A DNA stretch of 53,423 bases from Clostridia bacterium (lineage in GTDB: Bacteria > Bacillota > Clostridia > Christensenellales > CAG-138), in assembly GCA_017438865.1 (NCBI GenBank), contig JAFRUN010000011.1, forward strand, positions 1-53,423, in the 5' to 3' direction. The position numbers were made by a program, and so were the translations under genes. The notes beneath the pieces are model-generated. The model was given only the letters and a program-made list of their open reading frames with translations, was not told the DNA's origin and made no database searches. Position 1 is the first letter of the stretch. Each line of letters begins with the position of its first letter. Of the stretch, positions 3,450-30,956 are shown one piece after another.

Positions 3450-3692
3450 TCCTTTGAAATAAATACGCTCACCTCGTCAAAGGACGAAGTGAGCGTTCGC
3501 GGTACCACCTTTGTTAAACGGATTGCTCCGTTTCTCTCTCCGCCGATAACGTGGCGAAACGGGTACGGTTACTGGATTCTCCGCACCGGCTCAAAAGCGA
3601 CCTTCCGCAATTCGTGACCGACCGTTCTTTCAGCCGCGGAACGGATCTCTGACGGACGAAACGCGTACTCCTCTTTCTCAATGCCTTTTTAT
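3450..3692 (-). promoter_or_regulatory. T-box riboswitch (valine-responsive leader of valS)
   Basis: The minus-strand leader contains the T-box core AAAGGTGGTACCGCG (about 3498-3512), whose bulge pairs with the uncharged tRNA end. Farther 5' is the stem I distal region with the AGAGA...GGCTGAAAG pattern. A GTC at 3616-3618 lies where a specifier codon is expected and would read valine, in agreement with the downstream gene. The competing terminator is the hairpin at 3465-3496. When uncharged tRNA-Val binds, the antiterminator should form and valS be read. Confidence 0.9.
3465..3496 (-). terminator. T-box attenuator hairpin before valS
   Basis: ACGCTCACTTCGTC and GACGAGGTGAGCGT form a stem of 14 positions around a CTTT loop, followed by ATTTATTT. 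It sits directly 3' of the T-box core and ends about 25 nt before the valS ATG. The U-tract is interrupted, but the stem is strong. Confidence 0.82.
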
Positions 3693-3694
3693 GC

Positions 3695-3722
3695 AGTTTA
3701 TCACTTTTTTCGCGCTTGTCAA
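3695..3722 (-). promoter_or_regulatory. Sigma-A promoter of valS
   Basis: A perfect TTGACA (3717-3722) is separated by 16 bp from TAAACT (3695-3700) on the minus strand. It starts just after the stop of the upstream lipoprotein gene and immediately before the T-box leader. Confidence 0.65.
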
Positions 3723-3726
3723 GCGT

Positions 3727-5631
3727 TTATTGTTCTTTTGCCCAGGCATCCATGCGTTCGTTCAGCAGATCGAAATAGCCCGGTCCCCAATGCAGGTATT
3801 CCTTAAAGAACGCAACCTTGTCGCCTTTGCAGCAGCGGTTGGTCAGATCGAACAGTTCGCAGAACCCGCCCGTATACTTAAAGAAGTAGATCGGCATATC
3901 GATCGCGTAGTCATAGAAGTCTTTCGCATACGAATCCAGGCCCCAATTGCCGAGATACGATTTGATATCCTTGATCGAGGCGCCCTGCCCGTTCACTTTG
4001 AGCGAGCAGATCGTAACGAGGATGTTCCCGAAATACTCGTTCAAAAACGTCGCCATGGCGAGATCCGTGCCGTACTTTTTGTTGATCTGCGCAATATTCC
4101 ATTCCGAATTGGTCGACCACGATTCGGCATAGCCGTTCGATTCGATCATCAGCTGGAACTTCGGGATCGTACCGAGGTTGTACTGATACACGAATTGATA
4201 CATATGTCCCGGGAACCCCTCATGCGCCAGCGTGGACATGCTGTAGTTCTCCTGGTCCTTCGGATTCGTCAGAATGATATTATGGTGATAGCCGTCGAGT
4301 GCCGGCGTCATGTACGCGGCAGGAGAAAAGCTGTCCTGCAGCTCCTTCGGCACCTCGGTGTAGGTTACCTCAACGTCCGGCATCGGCGGAACGATCTGCG
4401 GCATCAGTGTCTTCAGGTACGCTTCATCGGCTTCCAGCGAACCCGCGGTGATGCTTTTGCCGGCCACAAGATCTTCGTAGCAATTCATTGCGGCGGAAAT
4501 GAAGACCGAATAGATCGTGGAGTTGCAGTTCTCAAGGAATCTGATCTCTTCCTCCACGGTCCTGTTGTTGGCGGACTCCGCCTTCATCTTCCAGCAATAG
4601 TAATCGTACGCCATTCCGCCCTGCTCGAACGCACCGATGCGCGCACGGCATTTCGGGCGGAGCTTTTCGAGACCGTCGTGCAAAAGCCGATATGCTTCAA
4701 CCCACTTTGTTCTGACAAGCTCGTCGTTCTTCGCAATGTATGCTTCGCGCTGTTCCGCGGAAAGGTATTCCTGTTTCTCCATCGCCTCACGGAAGGTTCC
4801 GTGCAGATAGCTCGTTTCTCCGCTGTCTGCAACGGTCTGCAGATCGGTAAGAATGACGTCGAGCATCTGCTCCGTCATAAACAGACCGAGGTCCGCACGT
4901 TTTTGCTCAAATGCAAGGACCTGTCCGAAATACCGCGGCATATCCGCAAGCAGCGTCAGATAGTTTTCGATGTCCTTCTCGTCCTTGAACGAATACAGTC
5001 CGAAAAACAGCGGCATATTCATATGCAGACCGACGTATTCGTCCAAAGGTTCATAACAGTAGAACCAGTCCGCCGATTCGATCTCCATGTCGAAATAGCG
5101 GCAGTAGGTATCGTAAGCAAACTGCAGCTGCGGGCGCAGAAGATCGCGGTCGATCGCATCCAGCTTTTCGCGCCATACCTTGCACTCCGCGATCCACTCG
5201 TTGTTTGCCTCCTCCGTAAACTCGCCGAGCGTAACGGGAACGGTCGCCTCGTCGATGCCGAACGCCGCGGGATCTTCGCAGTACTGGTCCAGCGCAGTGA
5301 TGTCGCCCGTCGCCGTGTCGATAAACAACGCCTCGTCCAGCGCCCAGAACGCTGCCTCCGCCGCCTTCTGTTCCTCCGTCAGCACAAGCGGCGCTTCGGT
5401 CGGCTCCGCCGTCGGTTCCGCCGTCGGTTCTCCGATCGGCGCTTCGGTCGGGATTTCCGTTGCCCGCGCCTCAGCCGTCGGCACGGGTTTTTCCGTTGTC
5501 TGCGGGTTGCTGTCGTTCATCACGGTCGAAGTGATGCATCTTGCCAGTCTGACGAGACCGGAGCAGCCGAACAGACCGAGCATCATTACCGCCGTAAGCA
5601 GCAGCGCGATGATTCGTTTCGCTTTGTTCAT
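3727..5631 (-). CDS. DUF885-family lipoprotein, probable metallopeptidase
   Basis: A 634-residue exported protein. The N-terminus is a lipoprotein signal (hydrophobic 7-20, lipobox LFGC with Cys23). A Pro/Thr/Glu-rich spacer at about 48-80 (repeats of the PTAEPTE type) lifts the domain off the membrane. The body matches the DUF885 family: HEGFPGH at 470-476 supplies two histidines and a glutamate for zinc, and NGYAESW (Glu503) fits the downstream metal/catalytic glutamate. It is therefore probably a membrane-tethered zinc carboxypeptidase-like enzyme; the substrate is unknown. The start has AAGGAG 6-8 nt upstream. It is the last gene before the valS promoter and lies 40 nt downstream of the pseudouridine synthase gene. 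Confidence 0.85.
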   Translation of the reverse strand: MNKAKRIIALLLTAVMMLGLFGCSGLVRLARCITSTVMNDSNPQTTEKPVPTAEARATEIPTEAPIGEPTAEPTAEPTEAPLVLTEEQKAAEAAFWALDEALFIDTATGDITALDQYCEDPAAFGIDEATVPVTLGEFTEEANNEWIAECKVWREKLDAIDRDLLRPQLQFAYDTYCRYFDMEIESADWFYCYEPLDEYVGLHMNMPLFFGLYSFKDEKDIENYLTLLADMPRYFGQVLAFEQKRADLGLFMTEQMLDVILTDLQTVADSGETSYLHGTFREAMEKQEYLSAEQREAYIAKNDELVRTKWVEAYRLLHDGLEKLRPKCRARIGAFEQGGMAYDYYCWKMKAESANNRTVEEEIRFLENCNSTIYSVFISAAMNCYEDLVAGKSITAGSLEADEAYLKTLMPQIVPPMPDVEVTYTEVPKELQDSFSPAAYMTPALDGYHHNIILTNPKDQENYSMSTLAHEGFPGHMYQFVYQYNLGTIPKFQLMIESNGYAESWSTNSEWNIAQINKKYGTDLAMATFLNEYFGNILVTICSLKVNGQGASIKDIKSYLGNWGLDSYAKDFYDYAIDMPIYFFKYTGGFCELFDLTNRCCKGDKVAFFKEYLHWGPGYFDLLNERMDAWAKEQ

Positions 5632-24654: not shown

Positions 24655-25479
24655 TTAAAACAGATCGCTGAGGATCAGGTCGACCAGATGCGTGAACTTC
24701 ATCGCCGCCTTTGCAGCCGTTTCGGTAACCTCCGCATGGGAAAGCGGCTGATCCAGAACGCCCGCCGCCATATTGGTGATCAGACTGATGCCGACGACCT
24801 TCATGCCGCAATGCGCCGCGCACATGGTCTCCGGGATCGTAGACATGCCGACTGCGTCCGCGCCGATGATGCGCGCCATGCGGATCTCTGCGGGCGTTTC
24901 ATAGCACGGACCGGACATCATCAGATAGACGCCCTCCTGCATCTGAATGCCGTTCTTCCGGGAGAGATCCATCAGCTTCGCGCGAAGATCCCTGTCGTAT
25001 ACGTTGCTCTGATCCGGAAAGCGCGGTCCGAACGCGTCGAGGTTCTTCCCGATCAGCGGATTGCTGCCGGAGAGGTTGATATGATCGGAGATCAGCATCA
25101 GGTCGCCCGCATGATAGCTTGTGTTCACGCCGCCCGCCGCATTGGTTACCAGCAGTTTTTCGACGCCGAGCTGTTTCATTGTGCGAACGCCGAGCGAAAG
25201 CATCCATTGCGGATAGCCCTCGTAATAGTGGAACCTACCCTGCATGGCGATGACCGTCTTGCCGAACTTCTCGCCGACGACAAAGCGATTCTTATGCCCG
25301 ACGACGCCGGATACGGGGTATCCCTCGATATCCGCGTAATCGACGAAGCGCTTGTTTTCCAGCGTTTCGGCATAGTCGCCGAGCCCGCTGCCGAGAATCA
25401 GACCGACGGTTGCTTTGTCCGCGCCCTTTTCCTTCAGAAGCGCGACGGCATTGTTGATGATCTTCATGATATTTTCCAT
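24655..25479 (-). CDS. punA: Purine-nucleoside phosphorylase
   Basis: A 274-residue trimeric-type (PNP-I) enzyme that splits inosine, guanosine and their deoxy forms with phosphate. ILGSGLGDYAE is the phosphate loop, GRFHYYEGY and LLVTNAAGGVN are active-site segments, and GPCYETPAEIRM plus DAVGMSTIPE is the family signature. The start lies one base after the deoB stop; GGAGG within the end of deoB serves as ribosome site, so translation is coupled. Ribose-1-phosphate produced here is the substrate of DeoB. Confidence 0.96.
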   Translation of the reverse strand: MENIMKIINNAVALLKEKGADKATVGLILGSGLGDYAETLENKRFVDYADIEGYPVSGVVGHKNRFVVGEKFGKTVIAMQGRFHYYEGYPQWMLSLGVRTMKQLGVEKLLVTNAAGGVNTSYHAGDLMLISDHINLSGSNPLIGKNLDAFGPRFPDQSNVYDRDLRAKLMDLSRKNGIQMQEGVYLMMSGPCYETPAEIRMARIIGADAVGMSTIPETMCAAHCGMKVVGISLITNMAAGVLDQPLSHAEVTETAAKAAMKFTHLVDLILSDLF

Positions 25480-25480
25480 A

Positions 25481-26656
25481 TTACGCCTCCCAGATTTCTT
25501 TCAGGAACGACTGACCTTCGCGCCACTGCTCGCCGGTCAGGTATTCATAGATCGTTGCGCCGATGTCCGAAAACTGCTTGCGGACACCGAGATTGACGCC
25601 GTGCCGGATATTCTTTCCGCAGATCAGAAGCGGGATGTACTCGCGCGTGTGATCCGTACCGGGGAACGTCGGATCGCATCCGTGATCCGCCGTCACCATC
25701 AGGATGTCGCCCTCCTGCATGGACAGGTACATCTCGGGCAGATGCGCGTCGAAATACTCCAGCGCTCTTGCATAACCTTCCCAGTCGTTCCGGTGCCCGT
25801 AGAGCATATCCGTATCGACGAGGTTCGTGAAGATGAAATCCCCGGTCCCGCTGTCCAGAAACCGCTGCGTGGCGCGAATGCCGTCCGGATTGTTCTTCGT
25901 ATGATCGACGGTCGTGATGCCGCGGTTGCAGAAGATGTCCTCGATCTTGCCGATGCCCACGACGTCCAGTCCTTTTTTTGCAAGTCCGTCGAGAATGGTG
26001 TCCTTAAACGGCGCGACCGCGTAATCCTTGCGGTTTTCCGTGCGCTTGTACGCCCCGTTCGCGCCGAGGAACGGACGTGCGATCACGCGGCCGACAAGGT
26101 ATTCGCCGGTCAGCATTTCACGGGCGGTCTCACAGATCTGATAAAGCTCTTTGAGCGGAATGACCTCCTCGTGCGCGGCGATCTGGAAGACGCTGTCCGC
26201 GCTGGTGTAAACGATCGGCTTTCCGGTGCGGACATGCTCGTCGCCGAGCTCTTCGATGATCTGCGTTCCGCTTGCGACCACGTTGCCGAGCGTGCCGCGA
26301 CCGATGCGCCGTTCAAACGCGTCCATGAATTCTTTCGGGAATCCGTTCGGGTAGGTCTTGAACGCTTCGTCCAGCGCAAGCCCCGCCATTTCCCAATGTC
26401 CGCAGGTCGTATCCTTCGCATGCGTCTGCTCGGCGCATTTGCAGTAGCTTCCGATCAGCTCGTCGTCCGTTTTCGGAAGAAGACAGCCGTCGATATGCGC
26501 AAGCCCGAGCTTTCGCATATTCGGCACGTTCAGATATCCGCGCTTTGCGAAGATGTTGCAGATGGTATTGGCCCCGACGTCGCCGAAGTCGGCGGCGTCC
26601 GGAAGCGCGCCGATGCCGGCGCTGTCCAGAACAATCAGAAACGCCCTTTTCTTCAT
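25481..26656 (-). CDS. deoB: Phosphopentomutase
   Basis: A 391-residue alkaline-phosphatase-fold metalloenzyme that interconverts (deoxy)ribose-1-phosphate and 5-phosphate. LIVLDSAGIGALPDAADFGD at the N-terminus holds metal ligands, and VTADHGCDPTFPGTDHTREYIPLL near the C-terminus holds the rest. Length matches the family. AGGGGTG precedes the ATG. Together with punA it feeds nucleoside sugars to the pentose phosphate and deoxyribose routes. Its promoter begins directly at the end of the Spo0A_C-only gene. Confidence 0.97.
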   Translation of the reverse strand: MKKRAFLIVLDSAGIGALPDAADFGDVGANTICNIFAKRGYLNVPNMRKLGLAHIDGCLLPKTDDELIGSYCKCAEQTHAKDTTCGHWEMAGLALDEAFKTYPNGFPKEFMDAFERRIGRGTLGNVVASGTQIIEELGDEHVRTGKPIVYTSADSVFQIAAHEEVIPLKELYQICETAREMLTGEYLVGRVIARPFLGANGAYKRTENRKDYAVAPFKDTILDGLAKKGLDVVGIGKIEDIFCNRGITTVDHTKNNPDGIRATQRFLDSGTGDFIFTNLVDTDMLYGHRNDWEGYARALEYFDAHLPEMYLSMQEGDILMVTADHGCDPTFPGTDHTREYIPLLICGKNIRHGVNLGVRKQFSDIGATIYEYLTGEQWREGQSFLKEIWEA

Positions 26657-26684: not shown

Positions 26685-26713
26685 ATTTTATCATATGCGG
26701 CGCCCTTCGTCAA
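26685..26713 (-). promoter_or_regulatory. Sigma-A promoter of deoB-punA
   Basis: TTGACG (26708-26713), 17 bp, TAAAAT (26685-26690) on the minus strand, 28 nt before the deoB start. The -35 abuts the stop codon of the preceding gene, so deoB-punA can be transcribed independently of the sporulation block. Confidence 0.78.
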
Positions 26714-27196
26714 TCAGTTTAGCCATCCGTACCGCTTTTTGATTTCGGCGGCGATGCGCTGATAATACTCCTCCCACATCGGATCCCCGGTGATCAGCCG
26801 GACGCGCTCGGCAACGAGGTACACAAACTCGATGTTTCCCGGCGGATCGTTGAGACGCTTCCCTCTGAGCCCCAGATATGAGTACAAGACCGCCGGATCC
26901 GCGCGCTTCCATGCCTTTTCGATCGCGTAATGCATGGTTTTGCGGATCATCGGGATCGAGGTATGCATACATTTCTCGATATACGGATACAGCTCCTTTT
27001 TCGTTGTCGTTCGGAGTTCCGGCGGACGGGTGCGGATGAATCGCGCCGCCAGAAAGATATAGCGGTATCCGATCAGCTTGGCAGGCACGCACAGCGCCCG
27101 CATGACCGCGTTGATCGTTGCGTCCAGAAGCGCGTCCGGATCGCTGTACCTCGAACGCAGCGTATCCTCCATTTCCTGCATTTCTTCCATCGTCAT
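26714..27196 (-). CDS. Receiver-less Spo0A C-terminal-domain protein
   Basis: A 160-residue protein that consists almost wholly of a Spo0A_C-like DNA-binding domain (about 27-135). Landmarks shared with Spo0A are VPAKLIGYRYIFLA (Spo0A: VPAHIKGYQYLREA), LYPYIEK (LYPDIAK), MHYAIEKAW (IRHAIEVAW), and NIEFVYLVAERVRL near the end. There is no receiver domain, only about 25 acidic residues before it. In the helix that binds the 0A box, the positions equivalent to Glu213, Arg214 and Arg217 of Bacillus Spo0A are Arg85, Lys86 and His89, so DNA recognition probably differs. The start overlaps the spo0A stop by ATGA and has GAGGGGGA upstream, so the two are co-translated. Possible roles: independent regulator, partner that dimerises with Spo0A, or competitor. 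It is not a fragment caused by frameshift, since spo0A itself is whole. Confidence 0.82.
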   Translation of the reverse strand: MTMEEMQEMEDTLRSRYSDPDALLDATINAVMRALCVPAKLIGYRYIFLAARFIRTRPPELRTTTKKELYPYIEKCMHTSIPMIRKTMHYAIEKAWKRADPAVLYSYLGLRGKRLNDPPGNIEFVYLVAERVRLITGDPMWEEYYQRIAAEIKKRYGWLN

Positions 27197-27903
27197 GTAA
27201 CTGCTCCCCCTCTGAGTAATCTGATATGATCCGCCGCGCGGAACAGAAACGCCGCGTTGGACGGAGCGCCGCGGTCCGACCGGACCGTATAGCCGAACAG
27301 TTTTTCAAGCAGCGCAGTATCCGCGCGGATCCACGCCGTGTCGATCGCGTGCCGCATGGCGTGCTCCGCAACGCCCGCGCTCACACCGTTTTCCATCGCC
27401 AGAATCCCGTAAAGATCGTTTACATGACCGACGCTGACCGTCGATTCCTGCGCAAGGATCAGGCGGATCGCCTCGCGCAGATAATCGAATCCGCTCAGCG
27501 AGACCGGAACGCCGACCTGCTGCAGAAAGCGCGAAATATCGACCTCTGTGCTGTTTCTGCTTCTGTGTCCTTCCGGAAACATCGCAACGCGGGAAAGAAC
27601 GGTTTTCGGATCTGCGTCCTTTGAAAAGCAGAACGTCAGCGTCTTTGGAAAAGAAACGCCGCCCGGCGGTTCCGAAAGCAGAAGAAAGATATGATTCGGC
27701 CATTGAACGGCGCAGTTTTGAATGCGCGGCAGAAGAACGGACGGATCGTCGGAGAGCAGCGCGTCGAACGGATCGCGGAAAAACCGTTCCAAAACCTGCG
27801 CCGTGTTTTTCAGCACGCAAAGGCGCACACCCCCCGTTTCCTCCGCCGCGTCCGTATATGCGCGCGTTCTCTTCCGGTCTCCCGATAAAAGCATGATCCG
27901 CAT
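27193..27903 (-). CDS. spo0A: Spo0A-family sporulation regulator with divergent receiver
   Basis: A 236-residue protein, somewhat shorter than the usual 260-270. The C-terminal half (about 122-231) is clearly Spo0A: ISRFLQQVGVPVSLSGFDYLREAI, HAMRHAIDTAW and LFGYTVRSDRGAPSNAAF. Recognition-helix residues Glu180, Arg184 and His185 are kept, with His181 where Bacillus has Arg214. The N-terminal receiver (about 1-108) is weak: the acidic pair is reduced to Gly8-Asp9, but Asp52 aligns with the phosphorylated aspartate, Ser77 with the conserved Thr/Ser and Lys95 with the conserved Lys. Phosphorylation is therefore possible but not certain. Position directly after spoIVB is the classic locus. GGGAGGGAGAG precedes the ATG; a perfect 0A box lies 62 nt upstream. 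Confidence 0.9.
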   Translation of the reverse strand: MRIMLLSGDRKRTRAYTDAAEETGGVRLCVLKNTAQVLERFFRDPFDALLSDDPSVLLPRIQNCAVQWPNHIFLLLSEPPGGVSFPKTLTFCFSKDADPKTVLSRVAMFPEGHRSRNSTEVDISRFLQQVGVPVSLSGFDYLREAIRLILAQESTVSVGHVNDLYGILAMENGVSAGVAEHAMRHAIDTAWIRADTALLEKLFGYTVRSDRGAPSNAAFLFRAADHIRLLRGGAVT

Positions 27904-27964
27904 ATTTCTCTCCCTCCCGTTCTTATTCTGACACGGGAAAATCGAAAAATCTGCCGGTTTATTG

Positions 27965-27971
27965 TGTCGAA
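27965..27971 (+). promoter_or_regulatory. 0A box upstream of spo0A
   Basis: TGTCGAA on the plus strand is a perfect match to the Spo0A binding site, in the 93-nt gap between spoIVB and spo0A. A weak -10-like AGAATA is at 27924-27929. A given 7-mer is expected by chance in about 1 percent of gaps this size when both strands are counted, so the match is suggestive of autoregulation but not proof. Confidence 0.55.
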
Positions 27972-27996
27972 TTTCGGTAAAACGATGAAATATCGT

Positions 27997-29196
27997 CTAT
28001 TGCAGCAATTCTTTCTCCATCCATTCCGCATACAGGCAGTAGCCGCGCGTGGGACGGCTGATGAAGACGTGCGTCACAACGCCGATCAGCCGCCCGTCCT
28101 GAATGAGAGGGCTGCCGCTCATTCCCTGCACGATCCCGCCCGTCTGTCGCAGCAGTTCGGGATCCGTGATCTCGATCATCATCCCCTGCGTTTCCGGTGA
28201 GGACTGCACGTCGACACGGATCACGTTCACCGTGTATTCCGTGACCGTGCCGTTTGCCGCCGAAAGGATGACCGCTTTTCCCCTGTGTGCCGCACCGCGC
28301 GGCGCGATCCCGATCGACCGCGTACCGGCATCGGAAAACCGTGTCAGTGTTCCTGCGATCCCGAACGGCGTATTGCGTTCGACGGTGGCAACGGCGTCTG
28401 CACTGCTGGTCGAAAACCGTCCGATCAGCTCGCCCGCCGCGCTGCCGCCGCTCTTCCGGATCTGGAGGATCGACGCCTTCGTAAGAAACCCTTTCGCCGG
28501 AGCGATCAGTTTCTGCGTGTCCACGTCGGTCACCCCGTGCCCCAGCGCCGCATACGCGCCGGTGGCGGCGTCGTAAAACGAGAGCGTGCCGATGCCGGAG
28601 GTGCTGTCGCGCACCCATGCGCCGATCCGCTTTTCTCCGCTGCGATCCGAAACGGGACTTACCTGCACGGTAAACGCCTTTCCGTCCCGCAGACAGGAAA
28701 GCTCGCAGGTTTCGCCCGCGGAGGCGCACAAATCTGCAAAGGAAGCGGAATCTGCAACCGCCTGTCCGTTGACCGCGCAGATCATATCGCCCTCGCGAAG
28801 TCCGGCGGAAAATGCGGGCGAAACCGTTCCGCCCGCCGTATCGATCCGGTCAAAGCCGACGATCTGAACACCCTCCGTCTGAAGCACAACGCCGACTACG
28901 TCTCCGCCGGGAACAACAGTCCTTCCCTGCGAAGCGGACCGCACCGTTTTCAGCGGCAGAAATCCGAACAGCCGGATCTCCGTTTCGGGACCGGCGACGG
29001 CAGAAAGGCGCTCGTCGCCGCTTCCGCGGACGAAACGCGCGTCCTTCATCCATGCGGCGATCGCCGGCGCGGCAAGATCCGTCTCCGCATCCACGCAGTC
29101 CGGAAGATGCAGAACCCGGTATACGCCCGGCAGGCAGTACCATCCGAGCACCAACACGACACACAGCGCGCTGCATATGCGCAGCAATCGTTTCAT
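27997..29196 (-). CDS. spoIVB: SpoIVB serine peptidase (S55)
   Basis: A 399-residue signalling protease that the forespore secretes into the intermembrane space to trigger SpoIVFB-dependent pro-sigma-K processing. An N-terminal membrane segment (about 8-28) anchors or exports it. A PDZ domain spans about 95-180 (SPAFSAGLREGDMICAVNGQ). The S55 domain has GALGH-type His220 (AALGHGVTD) and Ser362 in QGMSGSPLI; Asp345 in EITDPELL is the likely third catalytic residue. I chose the ATG at 29196 because AAGGAG lies upstream; an earlier in-frame start at 29244 would cross the terminator region. recN lies upstream and spo0A downstream, as in Bacillus and Clostridium. Confidence 0.96.
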   Translation of the reverse strand: MKRLLRICSALCVVLVLGWYCLPGVYRVLHLPDCVDAETDLAAPAIAAWMKDARFVRGSGDERLSAVAGPETEIRLFGFLPLKTVRSASQGRTVVPGGDVVGVVLQTEGVQIVGFDRIDTAGGTVSPAFSAGLREGDMICAVNGQAVADSASFADLCASAGETCELSCLRDGKAFTVQVSPVSDRSGEKRIGAWVRDSTSGIGTLSFYDAATGAYAALGHGVTDVDTQKLIAPAKGFLTKASILQIRKSGGSAAGELIGRFSTSSADAVATVERNTPFGIAGTLTRFSDAGTRSIGIAPRGAAHRGKAVILSAANGTVTEYTVNVIRVDVQSSPETQGMMIEITDPELLRQTGGIVQGMSGSPLIQDGRLIGVVTHVFISRPTRGYCLYAEWMEKELLQ

Positions 29197-29247
29197 ACGG
29201 TTCAACTCCTTTTCGATTAGAATATGAACCGTTTGAAAAAGCATACA

Positions 29248-29273
29248 AAAAAGACCTCCGGAGAGGTCTTTTT
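29248..29273 (-). terminator. Terminator between recN and spoIVB
   Basis: AAAAAGACCTC and GAGGTCTTTTT form an 11-bp stem around a 4-nt loop (tip CGGA/TCCG), with a T-run on both strands. It closes the nadK-argR-recN unit and separates it from spoIVB, which implies that spoIVB has its own promoter in the roughly 50 nt that follow. Confidence 0.85.
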
Positions 29274-29282
29274 GAGATGCCG

Positions 29283-30956
29283 TTATGCTTTTGCAGATTC
29301 CAGAAGCTGCTTCGCGTGTTCCATTGCAGCCGCGTCGTTTTCATCGCTGCCCATGATCCGGGCGATCTCCTTCGGGCGTTCCGCTTCGGTCAGGCGGCGC
29401 GTGACGCTGTGCGTCTTCTCGGCGTCGGAATACTTGTATGCGACGTACTGCGCGTCGGCATGCGCGGCGATCTGCGGAAGATGCGTCACGCAAAGCACCT
29501 GATGCTTCCGTCCGAGCGCGCGCATCTTTTCGGCAACGGCGTTTGCAACCATGCCGGAAATGCCCGTGTCGATCTCGTCGAAGATGAGCGTTTCGATCCG
29601 GTCCGCATCGGACAGCGCCGCTTTCATCGCCAGCATAATGCGCGACATTTCGCCGCCGCTTGCCACCTTGACGAGCGGTTTCACCGGTTCGCCGCGGTTT
29701 GCGGAAAGCAGGAACGAGACGGTGTCGATGCCGGTTTCCGAAAGCTGCTCCTTCGGGATCTCTTTGAATTCCGTTTCCATCGCGGCGTGCGGCATACCCA
29801 TGCCGTTCAATTCCGCAACGGTTTCCTTCATCAATTCCTTTGAAGCCGCCTTGCGGCGGTCGGAAAGCGCCTTCGCAAGCGTTCCGAAGGATTCGACGGC
29901 TTTTTGATACGCCTTTTCGAGCGCGTCGATGCGGTTTTCGCCGTCACTCAGAACGCGGTATTCGTTTTCGATCTTTTCACGGTATGCGAGGATATCGGCG
30001 ATCGTCGCGCCGTATTTGCGTTTCAGATTCTGGATCGCCGCGAGACGGCTTTCCGTCTGTTCGAGAAGATCGGGATCGAACCGGAACGCGTCGCGCCCGT
30101 CGCGCAGTTCATACGCGACGTCCTCCAGCGTATAATACGCCTCGTCGGTACGTTCCGAGAGCTTCCGGTAGGATTCGTCGTATTCGCCGATGCGGTTCAG
30201 CGCGTCGCGCGTGTCGGAAAGTGTCGACAGCGCGCCGCCTTCGGCAAACAGCGCGTCGTACGCCGCGTTCAGCCCTTCCAGGATCGTTTCCGCATTCCGC
30301 ATGCGGAGCCGGTCGGCTTCCAGCTGCTCCTCCTCGCCGTCGACAGGCGATACCGCATCGATCTCCTTTAACTGATAGGCGATCGCGTCGAGCCGCCTTG
30401 CGCGCTCCTGCAGACCGTTTTTCAAAATGTTCAGATCGCGTTCCGCCTGCAGGGCATCCTGTCTTGCCTGCTCGACGCGCGATTTCAAACCGTCCGAATC
30501 GCTCTTGGCATATGCATCGATGAGCTCGAGATGCGTTTCCGGATTCAAAAGCGACTGGTGCGCGTGCTGTCCGTGCAGGTCGACCAGCAGATCTCCGACC
30601 GCCTTGAGCTCGGCGGTACTGACCAGAACGCCGTTTATGCGGCAGACGTTTCTGCCGCTTACGGACAGCTCACGGTACAGCACAAGCTCGTCGCCGCTGT
30701 CAAGCTGCCGTTCGGCAAGATAGGATCTGACGGGCGAATGTCCTGCAAGCAGGAACGTTGCTTCGACCGCGGCTCTGTCGGCGCCGGTGCGGATGCTTTC
30801 GCGGCTTGCGCGCTCGCCGAGTACAAAGCTGACGGACTCGATGAGGATCGATTTGCCTGCGCCCGTTTCGCCGGTCAATACAGAAAAGCCCGCATCGAAA
30901 GCAATGTCGGACTTATCTATCAAAGCAATATTCGCAACTTGTAAACGAGTGAGCAC
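29283..30956 (-). CDS. recN: DNA repair protein RecN
   Basis: A 557-residue SMC-like ATPase for double-strand-break repair. The Walker A is TGETGAGKSILIES near 28-41; a long central coiled coil spans about 150-380; the C-terminal half has VASGGEMSRIMLA (signature) and TLIFDEIDTGISG (Walker B). Length is normal. The start codon is GTG with GGAGGG upstream. It follows argR after 11 nt and belongs to the nadK-argR-recN unit. Confidence 0.97.
   Translation of the reverse strand: MLTRLQVANIALIDKSDIAFDAGFSVLTGETGAGKSILIESVSFVLGERASRESIRTGADRAAVEATFLLAGHSPVRSYLAERQLDSGDELVLYRELSVSGRNVCRINGVLVSTAELKAVGDLLVDLHGQHAHQSLLNPETHLELIDAYAKSDSDGLKSRVEQARQDALQAERDLNILKNGLQERARRLDAIAYQLKEIDAVSPVDGEEEQLEADRLRMRNAETILEGLNAAYDALFAEGGALSTLSDTRDALNRIGEYDESYRKLSERTDEAYYTLEDVAYELRDGRDAFRFDPDLLEQTESRLAAIQNLKRKYGATIADILAYREKIENEYRVLSDGENRIDALEKAYQKAVESFGTLAKALSDRRKAASKELMKETVAELNGMGMPHAAMETEFKEIPKEQLSETGIDTVSFLLSANRGEPVKPLVKVASGGEMSRIMLAMKAALSDADRIETLIFDEIDTGISGMVANAVAEKMRALGRKHQVLCVTHLPQIAAHADAQYVAYKYSDAEKTHSVTRRLTEAERPKEIARIMGSDENDAAAMEHAKQLLESAKA

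Follow-up and report, generated by a model that had tools for sequence, protein, structure and literature searches.

Spo0A is commonly regarded as one switch that serves universally, and the recN-spoIVB-spo0A neighborhood is the arrangement of Bacillus and Clostridium. A phosphorylatable receiver needs an acidic pair, an acceptor Asp, a Thr or Ser, and a Lys, and on DNA the Spo0A_C domains adopt a head-to-tail arrangement. Duplication of the gene is in print for Clostridium thermocellum, whose second Spo0A homolog, Clo1313_0637, shares 49% identity with Spo0A of B. subtilis and 56% with its own paralog; the excerpt of that paper used here mentions no pair, receiver loss, or fusion (PMC4890492). 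Phages are described, again in an excerpt, as carrying a truncated Spo0A that consists of the effector domain without the receiver (PMC10294663). Outside the Spo0A lineage, the excerpted literature describes two pairs of atypical response regulators. In Streptomyces, BldM and WhiI form a heterodimeric activator that acts on a non-palindromic site in spore development, their two genes answering different inputs (PMC4125116), and in C. difficile the co-regulated OmpR-family proteins CmrR and CmrT, one of which has a likely pseudo-receiver, are reported to be able to heterodimerize (PMC12548384). No account of Spo0A_C proteins encoded as a coupled or fused pair turned up in a search of the open-licence PubMed Central literature. 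The locus described here encodes two such proteins, A and B, which share with Spo0A (TIGR02875) the DNA-binding domain and, with a receiver-bearing Spo0A of another family, the recN-spoIVB neighborhood. They differ from Spo0A in having no working receiver, in their recognition residues, and in the presence of a canonical Spo0A elsewhere in the genome. Compared with BldM-WhiI, A and B are encoded in one operon and are sometimes fused.

The window, the whole stretch of 53,423 nucleotides that was analyzed, is contig C67 of a source genome of 1.92 Mb that is 79.5% complete. On its minus strand the gene order is recN, spoIVB, gene A, gene B, deoB, and purine-nucleoside phosphorylase, with the following features:

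24655..25479, minus strand: purine-nucleoside phosphorylase gene
25481..26656, minus strand: deoB, phosphopentomutase, the downstream neighbor
26714..27196, minus strand: gene B, 160 aa, receiver-less, with Spo0A_C at residues 28-131 between conserved N- and C-terminal extensions; recognition positions R-K-H
27193..27196, minus strand: ATGA overlap, stop of A and start of B
27193..27903, minus strand: gene A, Spo0A-derived, 236 aa, with a degenerate receiver at about residues 1-108 and Spo0A_C at residues 123-227; recognition positions E-H-R
27917..27996, minus strand: conserved promoter/operator element common to A-B and an unlinked paralog, S; TTYAC-N7-CCG-N6-G..., then -35 and -10
27925..27930, minus strand: putative -10, CAGAAT (TACAAT or CACAAT in some relatives)
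27948..27953, minus strand: putative -35, CAGATT, 17 nt before the putative -10, assigned by eye from its position in the conserved block
27965..27971, minus strand: TTCGACA, resembling a 0A box (TGTCGAA on the plus strand), within the element
27997..29244, minus strand: spoIVB, the upstream neighbor that marks the ancestral spo0A slot (TIGR02860, 327.6 bits)
29283..30956, minus strand: recN (TIGR00634, 531.7 bits)

The gap between recN and spoIVB holds a terminator-like hairpin of 11 pairs (29248-29273, minus strand), a kind of match that is rarer here than in shuffled sequence, and because of this hairpin spoIVB may have its own promoter. A promoter-like match, TTGACG-17-TAAAAT, lies in the gap between B and deoB (26685-26713, minus strand).

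Both proteins were matched by the Spo0A_C profile (PF08769; A 76.9 bits, B 63.3 bits, gathering cut-off 25) and by 1fc3 and 1lq1, which are solved structures of the DNA-binding domain of Spo0A. A sequence-only reading of this DNA had described two overlapping genes with Spo0A-type domains, the second encoding a 160-aa protein without a receiver and with Arg85, Lys86, and His89 at its recognition positions, and had named the absence of a profile match for that protein as one outcome that would count against it. The description is borne out by the minus-strand ORFs of 236 and 160 aa, by their ATGA overlap, and by the score of B. The same reading took the first gene to be spo0A, which did not hold up: against the Spo0A equivalog model (TIGR02875, cut-off 200) A scored 80.7 bits and B 59.8 bits, and the Response_reg profile matched neither protein. 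When A was compared with Spo0A by profile, the alignment covered just the C-terminal domain and the last part of the receiver, and comparison of residues showed that the receiver of A has lost the acidic pair and that the loop past the acceptor position is deleted. In the structure that AlphaFold predicts for A (13 sequences; mean pLDDT 83, pTM 0.61), strands and helices succeed one another as in a receiver, with one helix absent, and Spo0A_C comes after them. Foldseek matched the second half of the model to 1fc3 and 1lq1 (TMt 0.81-0.89) and the first half to receivers such as CheY4 (4hnr; TMt 0.65, E 0.002). As judged from the predicted structure, A is a pseudo-receiver protein, having a receiver fold without the catalytic residues in which Pfam fails to recognize a receiver. 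Neither A nor B is spo0A, as the equivalog score is too low, a working receiver is lacking, the recognition residues are different, and neither gene is the sole copy; gene A occupies the recN-spoIVB slot of spo0A, yet it is not spo0A. Because the partner of B is this pseudo-receiver paralog, the translational coupling does not set a fixed ratio with Spo0A, as had been suggested.

The canonical Spo0A of the source genome is a 259-aa protein encoded on contig C17 (Spo0A_C 134.9 bits, Response_reg 79.2 bits). Canonical spo0A and A-B lie on different contigs or stretches, and the five canonical neighborhoods examined (L083, L084, L085, L089, and L090) were without spoIVB. The earlier statement that spo0A loci have one copy proved too strong when applied to whole genomes, where at least two Spo0A_C matches are common: they were found in 49 of the 61 genomes searched (60 relatives and the source genome) and in 37 of 128 genomes of the class, counts to which assembly duplicates or fragments may contribute a few cases. 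One genome of the class (G187) has six Spo0A_C matches, and in G050 two short Spo0A_C genes stand in tandem (L092:4931-5827).

The genus to which the source genome belongs is represented by 23 genomes; the 12 named records are metagenome-assembled genomes labeled 'Clostridia', 'Clostridiales', or 'Bacillota', and the body site given in four of these records is sheep rumen, cattle omasum, goat omasum, or buffalo reticulum. In 13 of the 23, A and B lie between spoIVB and deoB, and recN precedes spoIVB in 12 of these loci, the contig of G012 ending at that point. In 11 of these 13 genomes, the A and B frames share 4, 11, or 23 nt or are separated by 5 nt, and in the other two they are fused into one open frame (G015, 392 aa; G022, 397 aa). 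Since the A protein nearest to the G022 fusion is an unfused A on the contig matching G012 (65% identity), and the fusions are 47% identical to each other, the two appear to have arisen independently. Both fusions keep the ATG of B and the G-rich stretch before it, so a separate B may still be made from them; the A-B junction of G015 falls within a homopolymer run that may contain an indel error. Linkage is not obligatory, because A-type and/or B-type genes stand at separate loci in five genomes. In these five (G002, G005, G018, G019, and G020) no Spo0A_C gene follows spoIVB; deoB is directly after spoIVB in four of them, and none was seen in the G020 stretch. Unlinked A-type genes were found in G005, G018, G019, and G020 and unlinked B-type genes in G002, G018, G019, and G020, such that the two types are unlinked in a second clade of the genus, with G018, G019, and G020 having both. 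A full spoIVB was not found in the remaining five of the 23 genomes, and the locus is therefore either lost there or missing from the bins. All seven genomes that are at least 90% complete (G006, G007, G015, G016, G018, G020, and G021) have both an A-type and a B-type gene.

The dN/dS ratio was 0.22-0.32 for A and 0.04-0.20 for B (nine pairs each), as against 0.10-0.23 for spoIVB (seven pairs), most of the pairs giving rough values because their dS was near or above 1. As estimated from these alignments, A and B are both under purifying selection, with B far more constrained. It could be argued from the receiver erosion across the family that A and B are functionless, decaying relics of a spo0A duplication, but we consider this extremely improbable and rejected decay: the ratios are far from the value of about 1 that decay predicts, the frames are intact in 13 of 13 genomes with no frameshifts, and the promoter is conserved. 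In the survey of relatives that the sequence-only reading had called for, the receiver-less gene proved conserved and showed no decay, whereas its absence together with signs of decay would have spoken against that reading. A prophage origin of B was also considered and rejected. Phage Spo0A is receiver-less like B; B, however, lies in a chromosomal housekeeping locus, in the order spoIVB-A-B-deoB in 13 genomes, it groups with the spoIVB-linked copies, and its best phage relative among the matches listed is 32.8% identical. If A and B were independent homodimeric regulators with their own sites, held in one operon only through shared expression needs, then the unlinked A-type and B-type genes of the second clade and the difference in selection strength would be readily accommodated. 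The two fused frames, the tight coupling in 11 more genomes, and the joint presence of both types in the most complete genomes argue against such independence, which we judge to be improbable.

The residues equivalent to Glu213, Arg214, and Arg217 of Bacillus Spo0A (numbering from the sequence-only reading), which we take to be DNA-contacting, were then compared among the copies. E-R-R was present in all 55 distinct canonical domains compared. A has E-H-R at these positions in 13 of 13 genomes, as do the three unlinked A-type (A2) copies. Among the 13 B proteins, M-R-H was found in eight, E-R-R in two, and R-K-H, E-R-H, and A-R-Q in one each, so that B departs from E-R-R in 11 and the residues vary between species; R-K-H was found in the B of the window alone, which makes this protein unusual in its own group. 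All four unlinked B-type (B2) copies have N-R-R or S-R-R. Based on these counts, A always and B mostly are unlike Spo0A, and they are also unlike each other. This bears on the possibility that B, and A with it, would modulate or brake the entry into sporulation through the circuit of canonical Spo0A, either by pairing with Spo0A or by non-activating occupation of 0A boxes. The possibility is that raised for B in the sequence-only reading, widened here to take in A. Such a role would fit the Spo0A_C domains of both proteins, the coexistence of Spo0A in the same genome, the two B orthologs that keep E-R-R, and the sporulation genes of the genus: of the 23 genomes, 17 have a spoIVA match that exceeds the cut-off, and 20 have a gene for a sigG-like sigma factor, which stays under the curated cut-off in all. 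The presence of these genes makes some role in sporulation plausible. Nevertheless, a residue set that is invariant in canonical Spo0A is altered in every A and most B proteins, and the stable partner of B is A, coupled or fused to it in 13 genomes, while spo0A lies elsewhere. We therefore regard direct action on the Spo0A circuit as possible but unlikely.

The ancestry of the copies was examined using trees of the Spo0A_C domain (FastTree, 136 domains; IQ-TREE with ultrafast bootstrap, 73 of those 136), whose resolution is limited by the 100-residue length of the domain, some inner supports being 30-81. In the 73-domain tree, A and A2 group together (support 98), as do B, B2, and one copy from G034 (99), and A, B, and S form one group (99). 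This group is placed with the family's linked copies and the G037 copy that has a receiver (96), whereas ten canonical Spo0A proteins from the order are set apart in a clade of their own (100). G037, from another family of the same order, has a full-length Spo0A with its receiver after recN-spoIVB. The other copy from G034 falls with A and S (81). The Response_reg scores of copies at the recN/spoIVB/deoB locus range from 80.5 bits (G037) through 75.3 (G052), 59.2 (G028), 51.6 (G023), 44.0 (G034, A-type), 42.2 (G035), 31.8 (G027), and 30.9 (G031) to values under the cut-off of 30.2 in G050 (25.9) and G058 (17.4), and the copies of G032, G024, and the window (A) gave no Response_reg match. The linked copies of G050, G052, and G058 group together (95) outside the A/B group, and the copy of G056 also lies outside it, which indicates that receiver erosion occurred more than once and not along one line of descent. 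In G034, which belongs to a second genus of the family, a similar tandem follows spoIVB with long N-terminal regions on both proteins (L064:4881-6601), and this tandem, with its A-type receiver still recognizable, is likely an intermediate. According to the trees, in which this ancestry is well supported, A and B are specialized descendants of a spoIVB-linked Spo0A copy. That copy would have been duplicated in tandem, probably before the genus split from the second genus of the family; A would have retained the fold of a receiver but not its capacity for ordinary phosphorylation, and the N-terminal domain of B would have been lost later. Receiver-less Spo0A_C genes of 109-118 aa were also observed adjoining spoIVB in G043, G044, and G045 and near it in G038, four genomes from four other families of the order (L122:5948-6283, L126:5955-6311, L128:5948-6277, and L129:6027-6377); these bare copies are a separate route to a receiver-less protein. 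In G031 (L061), which is 94% complete, a Spo0A-like gene directly follows recN, and a full spoIVB was not found.

The 80 nt before A are strikingly conserved, though the A proteins are only 40-64% identical to that of the window. An operator pattern, searched in 23 genomes, recovered seven A promoters and the promoter of S in G008, and the strictest short motif had 19 occurrences across 456,237 bases of loci from the genus, with a Spo0A_C gene following 12 of them. As this count is partly circular, the loci having been chosen for these genes, two models were made. The first (R1), a sequence-only model from 13 A promoters, was searched in the 23 genomes and returned the 13 training sites, followed by five S promoters as the best five non-A matches (E-values of 9.2e-7 in G008, 6.7e-5 in G012, 8.7e-4 in G007, 0.013 in G003, and 0.014 in G006). 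The sixth non-A match (G014:C185) had an E-value of 0.0144, and four more S promoters (G001, G010, G015, and G016) ranked among background (E 0.10-0.18); with E up to 1, nine of 16 S promoters were found and seven were missed. The second model (R2), made from 24 A and S promoters, resulted in 29 sites with E <1e-5, consisting of the 24 training sequences and five held-out sites, all before genes for Spo0A_C paralogs. Each of the held-out sites (G013, G000, G004, G007, and G011) precedes an S-type gene. The S genes of G000 and G004 were absent from the profile-search list, were exposed by the shared promoter, and match the S profile at 1e-40 and 5e-40; that of G000, the source genome, lies on contig C44 (L240, about 3657-4030, minus strand). 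S is thus a third, unlinked, short Spo0A_C paralog, found in 16 of the 23 genus genomes. No Spo0A_C gene follows three weaker R2 sites (G001:C31, G000:C49, and G006:C3), another site, with an E-value of 0.02, was placed at the 5' end of B2 in G002, upstream of the likely start of that gene, and R2 gave no convincing site in 14 other genomes of the family (best E 0.0185). By eye, the S proteins have a shorter stretch before the recognition helix, and E-H-R is present in eight of 12 (L073-L082, L086, and L087). Given this shortening, S may have lost or changed DNA binding.

Within the operator, the conserved blocks TTYAC, CCG, G..A, and GT.G, read by eye, are about one helical turn (10-13 nt) apart and stand upstream of a plausible -35/-10 pair. 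Direct repeats at distances of 20 and 21 nt are the two strongest internal matches; their score of 1.07 did not exceed a column-permutation null (mean 1.36), and a tandem composite site is for that reason only a suggestion. If Spo0A~P were to bind the element as a diverged 0A-box promoter, A-B and S would be ordinary Spo0A targets, and the exact TTCGACA within the element of the window is what would be expected. However, with an exact copy at this place in only two of 13 genomes, the sequence does not qualify as a 0A box that is conserved. The window has 11 occurrences of TGTCGAA, where 11.8 would be expected, and the most conserved columns of the element are the four blocks and not TGTCGAA. 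We consider it quite unlikely that A-B and S are such targets, and a conserved 0A box as the explanation of the promoter was rejected as unproven. A sigma-H type promoter was considered by eye only, and its spacing did not fit.

Having weighed these alternatives, we favor A and B acting as one unit on account of their coupling, the two fused frames, their joint presence, and their differing recognition residues. The explanation that we prefer, and to which we give an even chance, is that A and B constitute a phosphorylation-independent heterodimeric regulator derived from Spo0A, whose heterodimerization and DNA targets we infer. The two proteins would be made together and would most likely bind DNA as a single unit, A.B, in which the Spo0A_C domains lie head to tail and each subunit recognizes a half-site of its own. 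The level of production, and not phosphorylation, would control the activity of this unit. The likeness to BldM-WhiI lies in this proposed working mode, in which two atypical regulators make one DNA-binding heterodimer. In an AlphaFold model of the natural fusion, the domains are mostly well predicted, and the low-confidence linker and pTM of 0.44 leave the arrangement of the A and B domains undefined. Expression of A-B would come from a dedicated promoter whose operator is repeated before S; A.B is the likeliest protein to bind this operator, and would thereby regulate itself, with Spo0A~P as the alternative, and the pair may have a role in the timing of sporulation. A more elaborate and tentative form of this explanation, which we think rather unlikely to hold as a whole, is that the Spo0A homodimer was converted at its own locus to A.B, which recognizes a composite site present twice and switches on both its own operon and S. 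In this conversion, A and B would be placed head to tail on two different half-sites, the copies of the site would lie about 20-21 nt apart upstream of the -35, and S, being shortened before the recognition helix, might act as a partner or brake.

The A-B pair of these uncultured, mostly rumen-derived bacteria points to an undescribed paired regulator. The presence of Spo0A has been used as a first criterion of spore-forming potential in uncultured genomes, according to the excerpted text (PMC11536998). As the gene in the classical spo0A slot here is not Spo0A, annotation based on position or on the domain only would mislabel A, in bacteria that have up to three extra Spo0A-derived proteins. 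Because the linked copies run from a full receiver through a pseudo-receiver to none, the evolution of a response regulator into a phosphorylation-independent regulator becomes directly testable, as does the question of how a homodimer might turn into a heterodimer. If the conversion of Spo0A to A.B is true, these bacteria, which have a sporulation gene set, would possess a self-contained, phosphorylation-independent three-protein switch beside Spo0A.
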